A stretch of DNA of 64,000 nt. Origin: Lachnospiraceae bacterium. GTDB taxonomy: Bacteria > Bacillota > Clostridia > Lachnospirales > Lachnospiraceae. This document shows, piece after piece, positions 1 through 7,856 of this stretch; within the stretch, counting starts at the first letter, position 1, and every line of letters begins with the position of its first letter. The DNA lies in contig JAGATV010000037.1 in NCBI GenBank assembly GCA_017621075.1, forward strand, positions 1 through 64,000. Direction: 5' to 3'. Both the position numbers and the translations under genes were made by a program. The notes beneath the pieces were generated by a model. The model was not told the origin of the DNA and made no database searches. It saw only the letters and a list, made by a program, of their open reading frames with translations.

Positions 1-19
1 CCATCTCCATGAAAGTCAG

Positions 20-110
20 CGGTATTCCGTTTGGAATATTTTGCGTCTGACCAGAAGTGGATAGGCTGTACCACTCTTGCACACTTGGTTGCTGAAAAGA
101 TGCGTAATTC
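20..110 (+). ncRNA. Candidate IS110 bridge RNA (target-binding part)
   Basis: IS110 elements encode a structured bridge RNA in a noncoding end. Its target-binding loop carries one arm like the top strand left of the insertion and one arm complementary to the right side. Seen here: a 6-bp hairpin TATTCC/GGAATA (23-38), ACCAGA (50-55), then GTACCACTCTTG (68-79). The last is the exact reverse complement of CAAGAGTGGTAC at the right junction (1533-1544). The first matches the bases left of AGTGG in the third toxin cassette. The boundaries and fold are inferred, not computed. Confidence 0.4.
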
Positions 111-176
111 CGAGAAAGATGCTTAATAGTTGAGATTGCCACTGTTTTGCCAAACATTGAGATTGGAGTTGATGTA

Positions 177-1412
177 ATGATTAAAGAAGATTATATTTAT
201 GTGGGTATCGATTTACATAAGGAGACCCACACAGCAGTTATGATTGACTGCTACAATAATAAACTGGGCGAGATTACTTTTGCCAACAGACCAGCCGATT
301 TTCCTAAGCTGGTAACTAAAGTGAAGAAATGTAATACTGATGGAAAAGCTGTAGTATTCGGACTTGAGAATGCTTATGGTTACGGCAGACCTTTAGCGGT
401 ATGGCTCATTGATAAGGGGTATCTCGTGAAAGATGTAAATACAGCGATATCCCATCGTCAGGCGAAACACAGAGGTGCCATGTACCGAAAGAGTGACAGT
501 GATGATGCTGAAGCTATTGCTCTGGCAACTTTAAATATGCTTGATAAACTTCCAGATGCGTGTCCGAATGACGCGTACTGGTCATTAGGTCAGCTGGTGC
601 ATCGTAGGGATAATATCATGAAACAGCGAACCAGACTGGTTAACCAGCTTCATGAACAGTTGTGCATTGCGTATCCGTCGTATAAGTCGTTTTTTAACGA
701 TATCAGCAGACCTACAGCTTTATATTTCTGGGAGCATTACCCGTCCAGAAAGTATCTGAAGGGTAAGAGTGTGGAAGATTTGCGTGAGGAACTTGTTCCT
801 GTAAGCCACAACAAGTGTTCCACCAAGACCTGCGAAAATATCTTAAATGCGGTAGCTGGTGATAAAGTAAAAAATATCGATTATCAAGATGCCAGAGATA
901 TGGTAACACTCAGCATTGTCAGTGATTTACAGCACTATGACAAACAGCTGGCAGAAGTAGATAAGATGCTGGAAAAGATGTATGATATGCTGGGCTGTAC
1001 ACTTACAACCATTCCTGGGGTAAATGTTATCACAGCAGTAAAGATTCTGTCAGAAATCGGTGATATCAAACGTTTTTCGAATGCCAATAAACTGGCACAG
1101 TTTGCTGGTATAGCACCGCTCCATCTGTCATCCAGCGGTAAAGGTAAGGATTTTGCTACAAAGCAAGGTAACAGAAGGCTGCAGGCTACGATTTATTTTC
1201 TTGCGATTCAGATGGTGCAGGTATCTTCTAAAGGTACACCAAGAAATCCAGTAGTGCGTGCATATTACGAGAAGCGTAAGGCAGAGGGTAAGAGCAGTCA
1301 GCAGGCTCTGATTTGTATATCCAGACGACTAATCAGTATTATTTATGGAATGTTAAAGAACGGTACAGAGTACCGTATGCCAGTAGTGGAAAATGCTGGC
1401 GAAACTGTATAG
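177..1412 (+). CDS. IS110-family transposase (DEDD recombinase)
   Basis: Intact 411-aa recombinase. The N-terminal RuvC-like DEDD domain shows VGIDLHKETH with the first Asp, GLENAYGYG with the Glu, and KSDSDDAEA with the two late Asp residues. The C-terminal Transposase_20 region has the helix-hairpin-helix-like stretch LTTIPGVNVITAVKILSEIG followed by the Ser-rich segment (HLSSSGKGK) that supplies the nucleophilic Ser in this family. ATG 177 was chosen because TTGGAG lies 8 nt upstream; an in-frame ATG at 147 lacks a ribosome site. It acts with a bridge RNA on recombination between element ends and target. The closest relative in the window is the 392-aa transposase on the other strand, which is clearly diverged. 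Confidence 0.93.
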   Translation: MIKEDYIYVGIDLHKETHTAVMIDCYNNKLGEITFANRPADFPKLVTKVKKCNTDGKAVVFGLENAYGYGRPLAVWLIDKGYLVKDVNTAISHRQAKHRGAMYRKSDSDDAEAIALATLNMLDKLPDACPNDAYWSLGQLVHRRDNIMKQRTRLVNQLHEQLCIAYPSYKSFFNDISRPTALYFWEHYPSRKYLKGKSVEDLREELVPVSHNKCSTKTCENILNAVAGDKVKNIDYQDARDMVTLSIVSDLQHYDKQLAEVDKMLEKMYDMLGCTLTTIPGVNVITAVKILSEIGDIKRFSNANKLAQFAGIAPLHLSSSGKGKDFATKQGNRRLQATIYFLAIQMVQVSSKGTPRNPVVRAYYEKRKAEGKSSQQALICISRRLISIIYGMLKNGTEYRMPVVENAGETV

Positions 1413-1551
1413 TAATAATGGCAAATATGTGATATTATTTTTAGCAGATGAAACAGTCGGCTTTGGGAAGTGCATTCATTTTTCGGAAGAGTGGCATCGG
1501 CTTGGATAATTATAAGAGTAAAGAGTCTTTGTCAAGAGTGGTACATCAACA

Positions 1552-1863
1552 TTGGCTCAGTATGGGGATGACTTTGGAAAAATGGGTACATATGTTGAAA
1601 ATCCTAATATTAAAGTCGACTGGACACAATATGCAGAACATGCGGCAGAACGAATGCAACAGCGAGGAATGACGCAAGAAATAGTTAACAATATTGTTGA
1701 AAACGGTAAAGTACTTTCACAAAATAATGGTAATAAATTTGCTTATATAACTCAAGAAGGTGTAGCAATAGTAAGTAAAGAAGGAAAATTAATTACAGCA
1801 TGGAGTAGTGCAGATTTTGATAGTAGTATGTTAGAAATAATAAGTAAACTATTTGGAGAGTAG
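1552..1863 (+). CDS. Orphan polymorphic-toxin C-terminal cassette 1 (DUF4258-like RNase domain)
   Basis: The toxin frame is open from 1522, directly behind the IS110 end, and reads SGTSTLAQYGDD before the domain. The first possible start is TTG 1552 with no ribosome site, so this looks like a displaced toxin tip rather than a free gene. The domain (about residues 21-100) has the pattern H-A..R...RGMT...I..I...G, then a strand-rich part ending LITAWS. This resembles the DUF4258/BrnT-like small RNase fold used as a tip in CDI, LXG and Rhs-type toxins. Family assignment is by pattern only. The next gene, 8 nt downstream with its own ribosome site, is the likely immunity protein. Confidence 0.65.
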   Translation: MAQYGDDFGKMGTYVENPNIKVDWTQYAEHAAERMQQRGMTQEIVNNIVENGKVLSQNNGNKFAYITQEGVAIVSKEGKLITAWSSADFDSSMLEIISKLFGE

Positions 1864-1871
1864 GTGAAGCA

Positions 1872-2126
1872 ATGGAAAGGATAACACAAATTATAAATGA
1901 TTGGGACCCCATTGGATTTTTCCCAATGGCTCCAAAAGATGAATACATTAATGAAATAAAAAAAATATATGAATTTGTTTGCGATAATTACAATCTACAA
2001 GTTCATACATTGGCACAAGAAATAAATAAAATATTTGTAGAAACATTTGGAACGGATGTTTATTATGAAGACTTGGAACAATGTACAATAATTGCAAAAA
2101 GAATACTAAAGGTAGAGGTGAAATGA
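1872..2126 (+). CDS. Putative immunity protein for cassette 1 (DUF1871-like)
   Basis: An 84-aa acidic cytosolic protein starting 8 nt after the cassette 1 toxin stop, preceded by GGAGAGTAGGTG. The N-terminal stretch NDWDPIGFFPMAPKDEY followed by EIKKIY is typical of DUF1871 family members as I know them. Position directly behind an orphan toxin domain, plus its own ribosome site, argues for immunity: such modules keep immunity expressed while the toxin is silent. Function is inferred from context; DUF1871 proteins have no assigned reaction known to me. Confidence 0.6.
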   Translation: MERITQIINDWDPIGFFPMAPKDEYINEIKKIYEFVCDNYNLQVHTLAQEINKIFVETFGTDVYYEDLEQCTIIAKRILKVEVK

Positions 2127-2478
2127 TTGCTCTTAATTCCTTGACTATTCCAAAACATCCATGAACAATGGCACTCACCAGGGGTTATAGGGGGAGAAAA
2201 ATTTCCTCTGCAACAAAATAAAAACGCAGTATCAGCGTATTTCAAACTTGGAAAAGTCATGAGATACCCTTGATTTTCTGTTCATCCTTATAAGTTTGCT
2301 AGCTGCATTAATAAGGAAAAATAGCGATTGTGTCAAAACAGTATAGCATAAAAAAGTTCTTTGGTTGAAGAAAAATTATGTCATACCATACTTCACCCAA
2401 CGGCTCTGTCGGTGGGTGTCTTTCGGCTTATGCCGCCTATTGGCGGCATAAGTTCTTTAACTTGCACTATTTTCGACC
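2127..2478. other. Noncoding stretch with two strong hairpins, no gene seen
   Basis: A+T-rich spacer between immunity gene 1 and the decayed IS110 end. No convincing coding frame. Two adjacent stem-loops are visible: 2394-2418 (CACCCA/TGGGTG plus inner pairs) and 2427-2452 (a perfect 11-bp stem CTTATGCCGCC with loop TATT). Neither is followed by a clear T tract, so they are not typical terminators. They may be an IS end or a REP-like remnant. Confidence 0.5.
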
Positions 2479-2668
2479 CTGTTTATTTTTGTTAAGGAAC
2501 GGTACGGAGTACCGAATGCTAGTAGTGGAAAATGCTGGCGAAAATATGTAGAGCAAATGTAAAATATGTGGTAAAATTTAGCTGATGCAAAAGTTGGTTT
2601 TGAGAAGTGTATTTTTTTTAGAAGTTGAGCATCGGATTGGATAATCATAAGAGTAAAGAGTCTCTGTC
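2479..2668 (+). repeat. Decayed right end of an IS110 element (second copy)
   Basis: Matches 1341-1533 of the intact element: the last transposase codons (AACGGTAC.GAGTACCG, then AGTAGTGGAAAATGCTGG) and the noncoding right end down to AAGAGTCTCTGTC. There are many substitutions and small gaps, and the rest of the element is missing. The match stops at the same base in both copies, which defines the right terminus. The next bases start the second toxin cassette. An in-frame TAA lies at the same IS position in both copies (1519 and 2654), so both toxin frames stand in the same phase to the IS end. Confidence 0.8.
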
Positions 2669-2716
2669 CAGACCAGCTATGGGAAGTCAAGTGGAAAATT
2701 AAACTGGGATGCAGTA

Positions 2717-3052
2717 GTGAGTAGACGAGGAGAAACTAGAAGAGCACATGTTGCATTGCATGAAACAAATGATTTAAGTAAGCCATCGCATGGAGTGTTT
2801 TATGGTGATTCTGTTTCGACAATAAACAAAGCTTGGGATAATCGTGCAAATGGATATATGCTATCTGAAGGAAATACCGATTTATATATTATTCCATATC
2901 AAAATGCAGGATTTGCTGGTGGATATGGTGGGCAAAGAAATAATCTCAATTATGTCACAATTGTTACACAAAAGGGAACTAATAATATAATTACAGGATT
3001 TCCGGGAAATGGCTATAAATACACAGCGGAAGGTCTTATAGGTGGTGAATGA
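2717..3052 (+). CDS. Orphan polymorphic-toxin C-terminal cassette 2
   Basis: The frame is open from 2657 just before the IS110 remnant end and reads QTSYGKSSGKLNWDAVVSRRGE ahead of GTG 2717; there is no ribosome site, so it is a displaced tip without its N-terminal delivery part. Visible features are TRRAHVALHE, KPSHGVFYGD, AWDNRANG, then PYQNAGFAGGYGG and a strand YVTIVTQKGTNNIITGFP. The His-containing start and late strand-rich half suggest a BECR-type (EndoU/barnase-like) RNase, but this is a guess from shape. The following Cys-rich gene is its likely immunity partner. Confidence 0.6.
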   Translation: MSRRGETRRAHVALHETNDLSKPSHGVFYGDSVSTINKAWDNRANGYMLSEGNTDLYIIPYQNAGFAGGYGGQRNNLNYVTIVTQKGTNNIITGFPGNGYKYTAEGLIGGE

Positions 3053-3053
3053 T

Positions 3054-3293
3054 ATGTATGAAAATAAAGTAAAATGGTGTCCAATATGTAATCAAGGTTG
3101 GGTGGAGATTGTAAAGGATATATCCACAGGAACTTTATTTTGCTGTTGTTCGGAATGTGAATCAGAGTGGAACACACCATTCAATGTTGAAAAAAACACT
3201 TGCAATTTGAAGAATAACTTTGGCTTTATAGAAGACCCGGACTATGACGAAATTGAGAAACTGGGATGGGATAAGTATATTTTAAGGGCATAG
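3054..3293 (+). CDS. Putative immunity protein for cassette 2, Cys-rich zinc-ribbon-like
   Basis: A 79-aa protein starting next to the toxin 2 stop, with GGTGG upstream. It has two Cys groups, WCPICNQGW near the N terminus and LFCCCSECESEW in the middle, consistent with a small zinc ribbon, then an acidic C-terminal half. I do not recognise a named family. Immunity function is inferred only from position behind an orphan toxin tip and from size and acidity. Confidence 0.55.
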   Translation: MYENKVKWCPICNQGWVEIVKDISTGTLFCCCSECESEWNTPFNVEKNTCNLKNNFGFIEDPDYDEIEKLGWDKYILRA

Positions 3294-3346: not shown

Positions 3347-4525
3347 TCACACAAACTTCACCGGCTCATACGGCTTACCATCCCTAAGTACAGCATAAAT
3401 CACGGTAGTAAGCTTGTTTGATACAGCACCCACTGCACTGAGATGGTGTTTTCCCTGGCTTCGTTTCTTTTTGTAATAGTCATTCAAAGGGTTATCATGA
3501 AAGGAACAACAACTGGCGGCAAGGAAAATGGCATGTCTAAGGTACGGCGAGCCGCGTTTCGACATATGGTTTCTGGTGGAGCAGAATTCCCCGGATTGTT
3601 TGACGGTAGGGTCAATACCAGCATACGCGACTAATGCAGAAGAATTGCGAAAACGCTTAATGTCACCAATCTCACTTAAAATGCAGGCAGCAATAATGGG
3701 TGAGATGTTTGGAATGGTATGCAGATAACAATCAAAGGTTTCGTAGTATTTAAGGATTTCTGCATCCAGTTCTGCCACTTGCTCGTTTAATAAATTTAAT
3801 CGTTCAAAGAGCTGATTTAGTTGAAAAGCAAAGGCACTTTGTGCTATCTTAATACCAAAGGTATTGGTCGCAGCCTCTTTTACGGAGAGGGCTTTCTTCA
3901 TGGTAAGCTTGTTGTGGCTTTTATCCTTGATAAGGGAATACAGTTCATCGACAGGAGCGTTAGCGATTTTGTCAGGGGTGATATAAGTTTCTAATATGCC
4001 TGTTGATGTACTGCCCCAAAGATCAGAGAACTGTTTTTCGTATTCTGGAAATATTTGTTCCAGAATGGTGTTGATACGAAGCTTAATCTGTGTTCTGTCG
4101 GTGATAACACTGTCTCTGTAACGGCAGAGTTGACGCATGGCAAGCAGGTTTTCGTCAGCCAGTGTTGTGGTTGTAAACTGACCAAAACGAATGACTTCAG
4201 CGATTAAAAAAGAATCCTTGGAGTCATTTTTTGTCTGGCGGATGTACATGCTTCTGAGACTGTCTGACTGGATGGGATTGATGACGTAGACGGTGTAGCC
4301 TTTTAATTGAAGAAAAGAATAGATAGCATACCAGTAGTGTCCGGTGGCTTCCATGCCAAATGTAACGTTTGAATCGCTAATGTTTCTGGTTATGTGTTCC
4401 ATGAGCTTGTCAGCCCCTTTGTGAGTGTTGGGAAAGCGGCAAGAACGACCGATTAACTTTCCGGAATAATCAATAATAGATGCCTCGTGATGATTTTTGC
4501 CAATATCAATGCCTACAATATACAT
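3347..4525 (-). CDS. IS110-family transposase (DEDD recombinase)
   Basis: Intact 392-aa protein. The N terminus reads YIVGIDIGKNHHEASIID (first Asp), then FGMEATGHYWYA (Glu), and TKNDSKDSFLIAE (late Asp pair). The C-terminal Transposase_20 part has LHTIPNISPIIAACILSEIGDIKRF and YAGIDPTVKQSG with the conserved Ser. The start at 4525 is supported by AAAGGAG 8 nt upstream. It is distantly related to the first transposase, so the two elements are separate arrivals rather than copies. Both sit at toxin-cassette junctions, in opposite orientation. Confidence 0.93.
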   Translation of the reverse strand: MYIVGIDIGKNHHEASIIDYSGKLIGRSCRFPNTHKGADKLMEHITRNISDSNVTFGMEATGHYWYAIYSFLQLKGYTVYVINPIQSDSLRSMYIRQTKNDSKDSFLIAEVIRFGQFTTTTLADENLLAMRQLCRYRDSVITDRTQIKLRINTILEQIFPEYEKQFSDLWGSTSTGILETYITPDKIANAPVDELYSLIKDKSHNKLTMKKALSVKEAATNTFGIKIAQSAFAFQLNQLFERLNLLNEQVAELDAEILKYYETFDCYLHTIPNISPIIAACILSEIGDIKRFRNSSALVAYAGIDPTVKQSGEFCSTRNHMSKRGSPYLRHAIFLAASCCSFHDNPLNDYYKKKRSQGKHHLSAVGAVSNKLTTVIYAVLRDGKPYEPVKFV

Positions 4526-4806
4526 GCTTGAACTCCTTTCATTTGTGTGTTGTAAGTAGGTAGAATCCTCACTTCAATGCGGGTTACAATCTGGTTCGAG
4601 ATACGAAGTACAGCACAAATGCTGCCAACATCCAGCTAATACGCAAAATCCTGCAAAGCAGAGGGAGCAGTCTCAGGTTACGAAGTCACAAGTGCTTCAA
4701 GAGTGGTGACGCACACCTCTATCTATTACAGGATCATTGTGAAATAGGAATTAATAATAAGCAATAGAAAGAAAAGACTGCTTTGGTTCCTATGTGTTTA
4801 GCATAC
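4526..4806 (-). ncRNA. Candidate bridge-RNA leader of the second IS110
   Basis: About 280 nt of noncoding leader. On the plus strand, GTCAC (4685-4689) and GTGAC (4706-4710) can form a stem whose loop region contains CAAGAGTGGT (4698-4707). This 10-mer equals 1533-1542 at the cassette 1 junction and covers AGAGTGGT at the cassette 3 junction. Read with the element, it is ACCACTCTTG, identical to the strand left of its insertion, as expected for a left target guide. ATTTTGCGT is shared with the first element's leader. No fold was computed. Confidence 0.35.
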
Positions 4807-5250
4807 CAGAGTGGTACATCAACATTTAAATACAAAGAAGTCAAGATATTTACAGCAGATGAAACCAATCAATGGTTTATTGATAATGTAAAACCAGACT
4901 ACAAGCCACCGTATAAGCCAGGAACAATAGTGAAAGAAATAGAACTTACCGAAAATACTACTTTTGCTAGAGTGTATGACAATATGCCGGACGGTTCAGG
5001 TATGTATGGAAGTTGGGTAATGAAAGCAGAAGATATCGAAGGATTAACACCTTTAGAGATACAAAATAAGTTTGCTTTACCTAATACTCCTAAATATGTA
5101 TGCGATGTGGAATTAGAAGCAGGAACGCACATAAGAGTAGGCGAAGTTAATCCTTTAGAAGGCTGGGGTTCTGGTGGTGGAACACAGTATGATTTAATTG
5201 GACAAAGAATTGGTGATTTTAAAAATGAAAGACTTTTGGAGGGTAATTAA
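4783..5250 (+). CDS. Orphan polymorphic-toxin C-terminal cassette 3
   Basis: The frame reads YQSGTSTFKYKEVKIF; QSGTST is encoded by the same 19 nt (AGAGTGGTACATCAACATT) that starts cassette 1. The only start is a TTG without ribosome site, so it is a displaced toxin tip of about 147 aa. The domain features ENTTFARVYDN, GMYGSWVMKAEDIEGL, QNKFALPNTPKYV, GTHIRVGEV and GWGSGGGTQYDLIGQRIGDF. The arrangement (early Arg, GSW middle, C-terminal GQR) recalls toxin tips seen on CdiA-like proteins, possibly NAD-directed, but I cannot name the family or the reaction. The immunity gene follows directly after the stop. Confidence 0.6.
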   Translation: MVPMCLAYQSGTSTFKYKEVKIFTADETNQWFIDNVKPDYKPPYKPGTIVKEIELTENTTFARVYDNMPDGSGMYGSWVMKAEDIEGLTPLEIQNKFALPNTPKYVCDVELEAGTHIRVGEVNPLEGWGSGGGTQYDLIGQRIGDFKNERLLEGN

Positions 5251-5592
5251 ATGTATCAATACGAGAAGAATCATATTGAAATCAATAATAATAGTTATGA
5301 CTTTGAATTTGATATACGTGCTGTAATCGAATACAAAGAAAATTACATAGTATTGCTCGCAATTCCGTTTAATAAAACAGAGATTAATAACATTTATTGT
5401 CTAGATAATCAAGCAAAATTAGTCTGGCAATCAGAAGATTTATCTGTTCGATACCCAGAATTGAAAAATCTTCTTCCTTACGAACAAATGGGAATAAAAG
5501 ATGATATTATTCTTGCATCAGATTTCTATGGGCGTAATTACCGAATAAATGTTAATAGTGGGAAGATTGAGGGAGTTAAAACTGTTAAGTAA
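5251..5592 (+). CDS. Putative immunity protein for cassette 3
   Basis: A 113-aa protein whose ATG directly follows the toxin 3 stop, with GGAGGG 7 nt upstream. It is strand-rich and acidic, with stretches such as YDFEFDIRAVIEY, YCLDNQAKLVWQSEDL and a C-terminal SDFYGRNYRINVNSGKIE that looks like the last blades of a small beta-sheet protein. No family recognised. Immunity role is inferred from its position, own ribosome site and low-complexity-free, cytosolic character. Confidence 0.55.
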   Translation: MYQYEKNHIEINNNSYDFEFDIRAVIEYKENYIVLLAIPFNKTEINNIYCLDNQAKLVWQSEDLSVRYPELKNLLPYEQMGIKDDIILASDFYGRNYRINVNSGKIEGVKTVK

Positions 5593-6134: not shown

Positions 6135-6376
6135 AAGACAACAAGTGGCGATGAAAAGGGCCAGTACGGATGGGAAGCATCCCAGAGAGAGGATGGCATG
6201 GCGGCATGCGGCTGAGAGATCCTTATGCGGAAGATCCGGAACCTTCCTTGGAGCTTCGTATGAAAATACGGCGTAGAACCGGCGTTAACGGTATTCGAGG
6301 AGGATGCGTAAGAGCGCATCAATTAGGGTGGTACCGCCGAGCCTTCGGTCCCTTGCAGGGAGCGAAGGCTCTTTTT
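6135..6376 (+). promoter_or_regulatory. T-box riboswitch with terminator, controlling proS
   Basis: The leader shows the hallmark T-box AGGGTGGTACCGC (6325-6337) that pairs with the tRNA acceptor end, then an intrinsic terminator GAGCCTTCG (6339-6347) / CGAAGGCTC (6363-6371) followed by TTTTT. The upstream part (6140-6260) is rich in stems as expected of stem I. Uncharged tRNA-Pro should stabilise the antiterminator and allow proS transcription; the tRNA identity is inferred from the downstream gene, since I could not place the specifier codon with certainty. Confidence 0.9.
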
Positions 6377-6422
6377 GCATGAATTTGGAAGGAATCAAAT
6401 CAGACGAAAAAGGAGAACAATC

Positions 6423-7856
6423 ATGGCAGACAAAAAAATGGTAGAAGAAATCACTTCTATGGATGTGGACTTTGCCCAGTGGTATACCGATGTGGTAAAG
6501 AAAGCAGAACTGATCGATTACACCAGCGTAAAGGGCTGTATGGTCATCAAGCCCGCAGGATATGCTATCTGGGAGCTGATCCAGAAGCAGTTAGACGCAA
6601 GATTCAAGGAGACCGGGGTGGAGAATGTTTATCTGCCCCTGTTCATTCCGGAATCTTTGCTCCAGAAGGAAAAGGATCATGTGGAGGGCTTCGCACCTGA
6701 GGTGGCATGGGTAACTCACGGAGGACTGAATCCCTTACAGGAAAGGCTGTGCGTAAGACCTACCTCAGAGACCTTATTCTGTGATTTTTATAAAAATGAT
6801 ATCCATTCATACAGAGATCTGCCCAAGGTATACAATCAGTGGTGTTCCGTAGTCCGTTGGGAAAAAGAGACCAGACCTTTCCTGCGTTCCAGAGAGTTTT
6901 TGTGGCAGGAGGGCCATACTGCCCATGCAACTGCCGAGGAGGCGGAGGCAAGGACCATTCAGATGCTGAATGTGTATGCGGATTTTTGTGAGCAGGTGCT
7001 GGCAATCCCTGTCATCAAAGGTCAGAAGACGGAGAAGGAAAAGTTTGCAGGCGCAGTAGCCACCTACACTATCGAGGCACTGATGCATGACGGAAAGGCG
7101 CTGCAGTCCGGAACCAGCCATAATTTCGGCGACGGTTTTGCCAAGGCTTTCGGCATCCAGTTTGCGGATAAAGACAATACCTTGAAATATGTGAATCAGA
7201 CCTCCTGGGGCATGACCACGAGACTGATCGGCGCCATTATCATGGTACATGGTGACAATGAAGGTCTGGTACTGCCGCCCAAGGTGGCTCCTATTCAGGT
7301 GTGTATCATCCCTATCCAGCAGAAGAAGGAAGGCGTGCTGGACAAGGCTTATGAATTGCGGGACAGGCTGTCCGAAGATTTCCGTGTGAAGGTAGATGAC
7401 ACCGACAAGACTCCCGGCTGGAAGTTCTCCGAGGCTGAGATGAGAGGCTATCCCATCCGTGTGGAGATCGGCCCCAAGGATATCGAGGCAGGAAAGTGTG
7501 TGATCTGCCGCCGCGACACCAGAGAAAAGATCGAAGTGGCACTGGATGAGCTGGAAGCAAAGGTAGGAGAAATCTTAAAGACCATCCAGAAAGACATGCT
7601 TGAGCGGGCAAGGGCACACAGGGATGTCCATACTTACACTGCTGCCAACATGGAAGAGTTTGAAAAGATCTTTAACGAGAAGTCAGGTTTTGTGAAAGCC
7701 ATGTGGTGCGGCGATCAGGAATGCGAGGACAAGATCAAGGAAAAGCTGAGTGTCACCAGCCGCTGTATGCCTTTTGAGCAGGAGGAGATCGCCAAGACCT
7801 GCGTATGCTGCGGAAAGCCTGCCAAGAAGATGGTATACTGGGGACGCGCATACTAA
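6423..7856 (+). CDS. proS: Prolyl-tRNA synthetase (archaeal/eukaryotic-type)
   Basis: 477 aa class II synthetase that charges tRNA-Pro. Motif 2 is in [13 protein letters not shown] and [24 protein letters not shown]; motif 3 lies in [23 protein letters not shown]. An anticodon-binding domain follows ([10 protein letters not shown]), then the C-terminal zinc-type domain with Cys residues ([29 protein letters not shown]), ending in Tyr as in the archaeal-type enzymes. It has no editing insert, matching the short length. ATG 6423 follows AAAGGAGAACAATC; an upstream ATG at 6375 overlaps the terminator. Controlled by the T-box. Confidence 0.96.

Follow-up and report, generated by a model that had tools for sequence, protein, structure and literature searches.

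An IS110 element and its guide at the contig start

The window analysed here is a 64,000-nucleotide (nt) stretch of DNA from a Lachnospiraceae bacterium (GenBank assembly GCA_017621075.1, contig JAGATV010000037.1, positions 1 to 64,000), and it opens at base 1 of contig C56 in a draft genome of 61 contigs. The first gene, at 177..1412 on the + strand, encodes a 411-amino-acid recombinase of the IS110 family (element 1), with a DEDD domain (PF01548, 83.3 bits; cut-off 29), a Transposase_20 domain (PF02371, 66.1 bits; cut-off 21.3) and a family match to NF033542 (205.1 bits; cut-off 140). It is preceded by a noncoding leader (1..176, +; nhmmer match to the leader profile) whose left side is missing at the contig start, the left end of the element lying beyond the readable DNA, and followed by the right end of the element (1413..1534, +; right-end profile match at 1406-1542). 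There, the site CAAGAGTGGTACA (1533..1545, +) begins an orphan toxin tip, tip 1 (1534..1863, +; DUF4258, PF14076, 27.5 bits, cut-off 25), with a DUF1871 gene behind it (1872..2126, +; PF08958) that is a putative immunity gene by position. We consider the best explanation, at a probability of about 0.78, to be that the window opens with the last part of an RNA-guided integrative unit (1-1534), after which older cassettes follow as an array, and that such IS110 units would insert at the core/tip junction of RHS toxin genes and bring a new tip with them.

Within the leader, the guide GTACCACTCTTG at 68..79 (+) is the exact reverse complement of the bases at 1533-1544, as the earlier note on this DNA had pointed out, and the longest antisense run between the leader (1-176) and the junction region (1501-1560) reaches 13 nt on extension. 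In 5000 letter shuffles of the leader, the longest antisense run averaged 6.4 and never exceeded 13. With up to one mismatch, GTACCACTCTTG has three matches in the window where 0.18 are expected, and none of 100 shuffles reached three. The same note had read ACCAGA (50-55) as a guide to the left half of the target, citing its match at the third cassette, which has ACCAGAGTGG directly before it. This reading did not hold up: the motif remains CCAGAA while the site shifts from AGAG to AGGG, the bases left of the site in the toxin genes are variable core sequence, and those at the third cassette belong to a second, different IS110, whose end they form (reverse complement of CTGGTATGCTAAACA) and whose other copies show them again.

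Covariation of the guide with the right junction

Relatives were sought by recombinase similarity alone, and not by toxin or guide, so that their neighbourhoods provide an independent test. The first search returned 31 loci on genome contigs, many of which bear the name Lachnospiraceae, and the right end carried [A/G]G[A/G]GTGG in 24 of them; the motif was absent from L005 (at a contig end), L014, L020, L031, L032, L033 and L034. Further sampling, with genomes drawn evenly from larger groups and wider regions taken, brought in more distant relatives, with identities as low as about 39-40% and with some members of other families of the class. In part of this sampling at most four candidates per genome were scored, and numbers of elements per genome are therefore lower bounds. 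Among viral contigs, 14 pattern matches included no relative, and each of the 1519 plasmid records was below 60% identity. The recombinase N-terminus was present in 61 elements, and a guide was read in 58, four of them set by hand; the three with no readable guide (L023, L058 and L116) were left out of the counts. The junction test also left out L005 and L017, which have less than 150 nt downstream (n = 56), and the upstream test was limited to elements with at least 2.5 kb upstream (n = 46). Note that L014/L050 and L020/L053 are two elements, each fetched twice, and that the junction count of 56 includes both L020 and L053.

In these relatives, the 12-nt guide occupies a fixed place in a conserved RNA loop of the leader. 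Its reverse complement has an exact run of at least 8 nt within 300 nt of the gene end in 41 of the 56 elements, compared with 5.8 on average and at most 31 when guides were permuted among classes (2000 trials), and with 1/56 in a same-sense control. Counted by distinct guide, 17 of 29 reached 8 nt with their own junction. Changed guides face correspondingly changed sites in L055 (AAATCCCCCTTG with CAAGGGGGATT), L054 (TAGCCTCCCTTG with CAAGGGAGGCT), the second copy in L044 (TTTCCCCCCTTG with CAAGGGGGGAA), L095 (GGCGTTCCCTTG with AAGGGAACGCC) and the first copy in L099 (GTTACCCCCTTG with AGGGGGTAA), and these pairs read as examples of natural reprogramming. Judged from sequence, guide and site thus covary as they do in bridge RNA and seekRNA elements, and the proposal that the leader contains a guide antisense to the right junction is borne out across relatives.

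A structured RNA loop carries the guide

In the window, the guide loop lies at 59-140 (+; row L001:59-140 of the loop alignment). An alignment of 27 sequences gives an outer stem, two inner stems and a small apical stem, with 96.8% of cells paired, a percentage biased in favour of the structure, which was named from the same sequences. Two-sided changes occur in 10 of the 13 pairs and in 53 cells, compared with 14.3 in shuffles, and only 20-46% of cells were paired when partners were slid by 1-3 columns. The guide forms the 5' arm of an internal loop, as the earlier note required. Opposite it is the 3' arm, GTTGAGA in the window (129..135, +), for which we propose base pairing with the bottom strand on the left side of the site. 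In its sequence, this arm resembles the junction's left half: where a row has an AGAG-type site and a run of at least 7 (11 of the rows listed), the arm reads GAGA, and it reads GAGG or GCGG in rows with GGG-type sites.

A covarying loop next to the recombinase gene is what a structured noncoding RNA of the bridge RNA or seekRNA kind would look like. One guide loop was recognised across the family in leader alignments, in a comparison with the separate donor and target loops of the IS621 type, and RNAalifold on longer leaders found no structure 5' of the loop on that alignment. Rfam gave only a T-box at gathering scores in the window and no match at E 0.1 in nine relatives. The region 6142-7856 contains this T-box leader ahead of a frame which we take, by eye, to be prolyl-tRNA synthetase-like.

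The site lies between RHS cores and toxin tips

The site also occurs on the far side of the units. The element's own exact 8-mer was found in frame in an upstream open frame in 19 of 46 elements, compared with 31 of 811 trials for the 8-mers of other guides; permutation gave a mean of 2.7 and a maximum of 18, and none of 5000 permutations reached 19, with the test frame (x|AG GGN NNN) having been picked after earlier in-frame matches had been seen. Wherever it could be read, the left 8-mer falls at the core/tip junction, and in these 19 elements a distance of 1.6 to 9.2 kb, filled by the tip and more sequence, separates it from the start of the recombinase gene downstream. RHS repeats (PF05593) were present in all five upstream proteins scanned, and in L111 a pretoxin HINT domain ends three residues before the site.

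Behind the left site, three of nine tips scanned matched toxin families above cut-off (CdiA_C, Colicin_E5 and Tox-REase-9) and one matched DUF4258 below it; toxin-family tips follow the site directly in L105, L106 and L112, and also in L043. Ten right-hand tips were scanned, with one colicin DNase match and one DUF4474 match. Most tips have no family match, and for these the toxin label is given by position. Taken together with the RHS core upstream, these tips indicate that the insertion site is the start of polymorphic-toxin tips, as had been suggested from the window, and the upstream genes scanned in the relatives encode RHS polymorphic toxins with a variable C-terminal tip; the window itself begins at the contig start. 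Among right-hand tip frames, 39 of 42 lack a start codon in the stretch from the upstream stop to the site (exceptions: L056, the second L044 copy and L117), so that these tips look silent.

Composition and insertion of the units

The apparent order of a unit is site, tip, neighbour gene, cargo, leader RNA, recombinase and right end, followed by the site again and an orphan tip. Three types of filling were found. The first is a conserved noncoding b region, which lies about 250-880 nt before the recombinase gene in L008 and relatives and is kept even in decayed units (window 2137-2491); conservation in these units covers about 880 nt ahead of the gene, of which the last ~250 are the leader. 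The second comprises Rep, resolvase-like and tyrosine recombinase genes (L004 and L048), and the third a P4-family primase and an HK97-type capsid gene (L105). The latter cargo, at L105:8353-15172, is satellite-like and sits inside a toxin-tip unit, with homologous cargo in L106 and L107. Tandem units occur in L043 and L044. Whereas a plain insertion sequence has no cargo between its ends, a tip and further genes stand between left site and recombinase here.

One genome, G750, provides an empty and an occupied locus. In the joined locus, core and tip lie at 2371438-2370017 and 2370028-2367809. At a second locus, the same pieces (96.3% identity over 1422 nt and 94.2% over 2227 nt) are 4811 nt apart, and the insert between them holds a new tip, further genes and an IS110. 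The joined locus contains AGGGAACGAGTA a single time, and the insert of the split locus has it at each end, indicating insertion of a whole unit, as a 4.8-kb block, at the site. Four G750 cores are 95-100% identical over the 150 nt up to the site and 27-37% identical after it. The suggestion that tips are exchanged by insertion at the site is thus supported by near-identical cores with different tips and by the joined and split loci. A further split pair, L051/L060, was set aside as not being a clean empty site, and the other split patterns examined gave none at the site. On G750:C1, one RHS core end has 24 matches, and this single genome thus contains many copies of it with different tips; among the matches listed, six finish at AGGGAACG (L126, L128, L130, L132, L134 and L150).

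Proposed mechanism and alternative explanations

We propose that the IS110-family recombinase and the structured leader RNA act as a pair of the bridge RNA or seekRNA type. The RNA would be expressed and used by the recombinase, its 5' arm reading the site and its 3' arm probably pairing with the bottom strand just left of it. The mobile unit, possibly moving as a circular intermediate, would begin with the site and the new tip, continue with the neighbour (putative immunity) gene and variable cargo, and close with the leader RNA and the recombinase. Insertion at the RHS core/tip junction would join the new tip in frame, leave the old tip downstream as a silent orphan and re-create the target at the new core/tip junction; with the target re-created, rounds could be repeated and arrays could grow. 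One loop could serve both donor and target, because the two share their right half, in line with the seekRNA donor flanks that carry the target according to the available text of PMC11187229.

Several observations weigh against this proposal. The guide has a run below 8 nt in 15 of the 56 elements. Matches are poor in L096, L098, L101, L115, two of the three L094 copies and the second L099 copy, and L061, L062, L118 and L046 have mismatches at the third base and near the far end. The case that the earlier note named as refuting its idea does occur: L014/L050 and L020/L053, which are among the 15, have the same kind of guide and a different right flank. An in-frame exact left 8-mer is missing from 27 of 46 elements; some of these are explained by a contig end or an inexact match and others are unexplained. 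The left junction of the window's own element is absent from the data, and there is only one clean empty/occupied pair. The association of the 3' arm with the site, which largely tracks ancestry, is weaker evidence. Finally, three G750 units whose recombinases are 98-100% identical have unrelated tips; the region of difference begins just behind the site and extends to where the cargo starts, indicating that, within one lineage of units, something else exchanges tip modules as well; our guess is homologous recombination between tandem units.

These G750 units, alike in cargo and recombinase, are also what would be seen if a plain IS110 (leader, recombinase and right end, with or without the b region) had inserted at the junction, and tips and neighbour genes were moved by homologous recombination between cores and between units. 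Homologous or illegitimate recombination is moreover the published view of tip and effector displacement, as given in the text available of PMC5361080. A plain IS110, however, would set the core against the leader or b region, whereas the recombinase is 1.6-9.2 kb off, behind a tip, in the 19 elements, and in the G750 pair tip and IS110 form a single 4.8-kb block that the site bounds on either side; we therefore regard this explanation as unlikely. Another possibility is that a tyrosine or serine recombinase of known type moves the units with the IS110 as a passenger at the right end, given the XerC-like recombinase or resolvase-like gene in some units (L048, L004 and L108). This is very improbable, since the b-type units and the L105 cargo that were scanned (for L105, four frames) contain no such gene but share these ends, which covary with the guide in the IS110 leader. 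That the match is a conserved inverted copy of the element's end with no guide role, as the window taken alone might suggest (leader and end are inverted copies there, and the first matching bases, CA, belong to the right end of the unit), is scarcely credible, as the guide letters follow the changes of the site within an otherwise conserved leader, and the motif is also in frame in upstream toxin genes.

The RNA-guided unit therefore remains the explanation that we favour. With less assurance, we lean towards a broader reading, in which bridge-RNA recombinases provide an RNA-programmed cassette exchange for polymorphic toxins: their guides would be matched to the core/tip junction, their cargo would be toxin-immunity pairs, together at times with satellite-like genes, and each insertion would re-create the target, so that arrays of tips are built up.

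Older cassettes and a second IS110 lineage

Genome G221 contains an orphan that matches tip 1 and its neighbour gene at 94% identity over 590 nt. It sits behind a 61%-identical IS110, so that two different recombinases are found at one tip. Among 299 family genomes, tip 1 occurred in two, as an orphan both times, and no core-attached copy was found.

Downstream of tip 1 are the remains of an older unit, namely a decayed b region (2137..2491, +; profile match, E 4e-51) and a decayed recombinase tail with a right end (2490..2671, +; repeats D1 and D2, right-end profile at 2544-2671). Cassette 2 follows, with a tip-like open frame of no Pfam family (2717..3052, +) and a neighbour gene that is putatively an immunity gene by position (3042..3293, +; sub-threshold matches only). 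Its start, near 2672, carries a different motif from AGAGTGG. AGCTATGGGAAGTC is a tip start common to the window from 2672 onward and to the right flanks of L014/L050 and L020/L053; the guides ahead of these tip starts do not match it, and it may be the site of another lineage.

Element 2 is encoded in reverse orientation. Its recombinase (3347..4525, -; domain and family profiles) is 29% identical to that of element 1, and its leader (4526..4805, -), conserved in L002, L050 and L053, has an end that abuts the third site, AGAGTGGTAC (4808..4817, +). The guide-like stretch GTCACCACTCTTG in this leader (4698..4710, -) faces a site of this kind in three cases (the window, L002 and L050); the match fails in L053, and a 59%-identical relative in L098 matches only partly. 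The opposite orientation had been attributed to a palindromic target accepting one element either way; that account falls away, since element 2 is another IS110 with its own guide-like stretch. We lean, jointly with the cassette-exchange reading and to the same degree, towards a second IS110 lineage that arrived at this junction too, its recombinase gene being in the opposite orientation. Behind the third site, cassette 3 comprises a tip-like open frame of no Pfam family (4807..5250, +) and an open frame that is putatively an immunity gene by position (5251..5592, +). Four proteins queried in PADLOC gave no match.

Comparison with known systems

The L105 unit resembles P4 and phage-inducible chromosomal island (PICI) satellites, by its genes alone, in having a P4-family primase and an HK97-type capsid gene; it differs from them in the IS110-type recombinase at its end and in being inserted in a toxin gene. 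In integrons, cassettes are added at one end and older ones are displaced backward. The present recombinase differs from that of integrons, with which displacement is compared in PMC5361080 (Kirchberger 2017), in being of IS110 type and in travelling with each unit. As described in the available part of that paper, displacement arrays of RHS and type VI secretion system (T6SS) effectors likewise have a new toxin module in front and old ones retained behind; they are credited there to homologous or homology-facilitated illegitimate recombination, with no evidence so far for an integrase, whereas an RNA-guided recombinase and a site are proposed here.

Compared with the IS621 bridge RNA, as presented in the portion available of PMC11208160 (Durrant 2024), the recombinase family, an RNA encoded upstream of the gene, naturally reprogrammed guides, and a loop with one arm for each strand of the junction, the two overlapping at the centre, are alike. 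The present units differ in carrying a toxin tip, a neighbour gene and kilobases of cargo on the left, in the single conserved guide loop recognised, with the arm order reversed relative to the element, and in an insertion that would keep the host gene in frame and re-create the target. With the seekRNA elements of the IS1111/IS110 group, in the accessible text of PMC11187229 (Siddiquee 2024), they share a short RNA with one segment per strand and a donor flank that shares sequence with the target. The arm order found here (top-strand complement first, relative to the element) is that stated there for IS1111, and the position of the RNA upstream of the gene is that stated for IS110. Cargo was movable by experiment in the seekRNA study; the present units differ in having natural cargo and a toxin-gene target. 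The word 'toxin' occurs zero times in the available texts of PMC11208160 and PMC11187229, and 'Rhs' zero times in that of the latter. In the open-licence literature, with preprints outside the scope, nothing was found linking IS110 bridge RNA to RHS and, by title and abstract start, nothing on IS110 guiding polymorphic-toxin tip exchange.

For the gain of RHS tips and the orphan arrays, a specific enzyme, guide and site are now offered, which makes their origin a directly testable question. The loci further suggest that natural bridge-RNA elements may transport kilobases of cargo without breaking the reading frame of the gene they enter, and many naturally changed guides are available for comparison.
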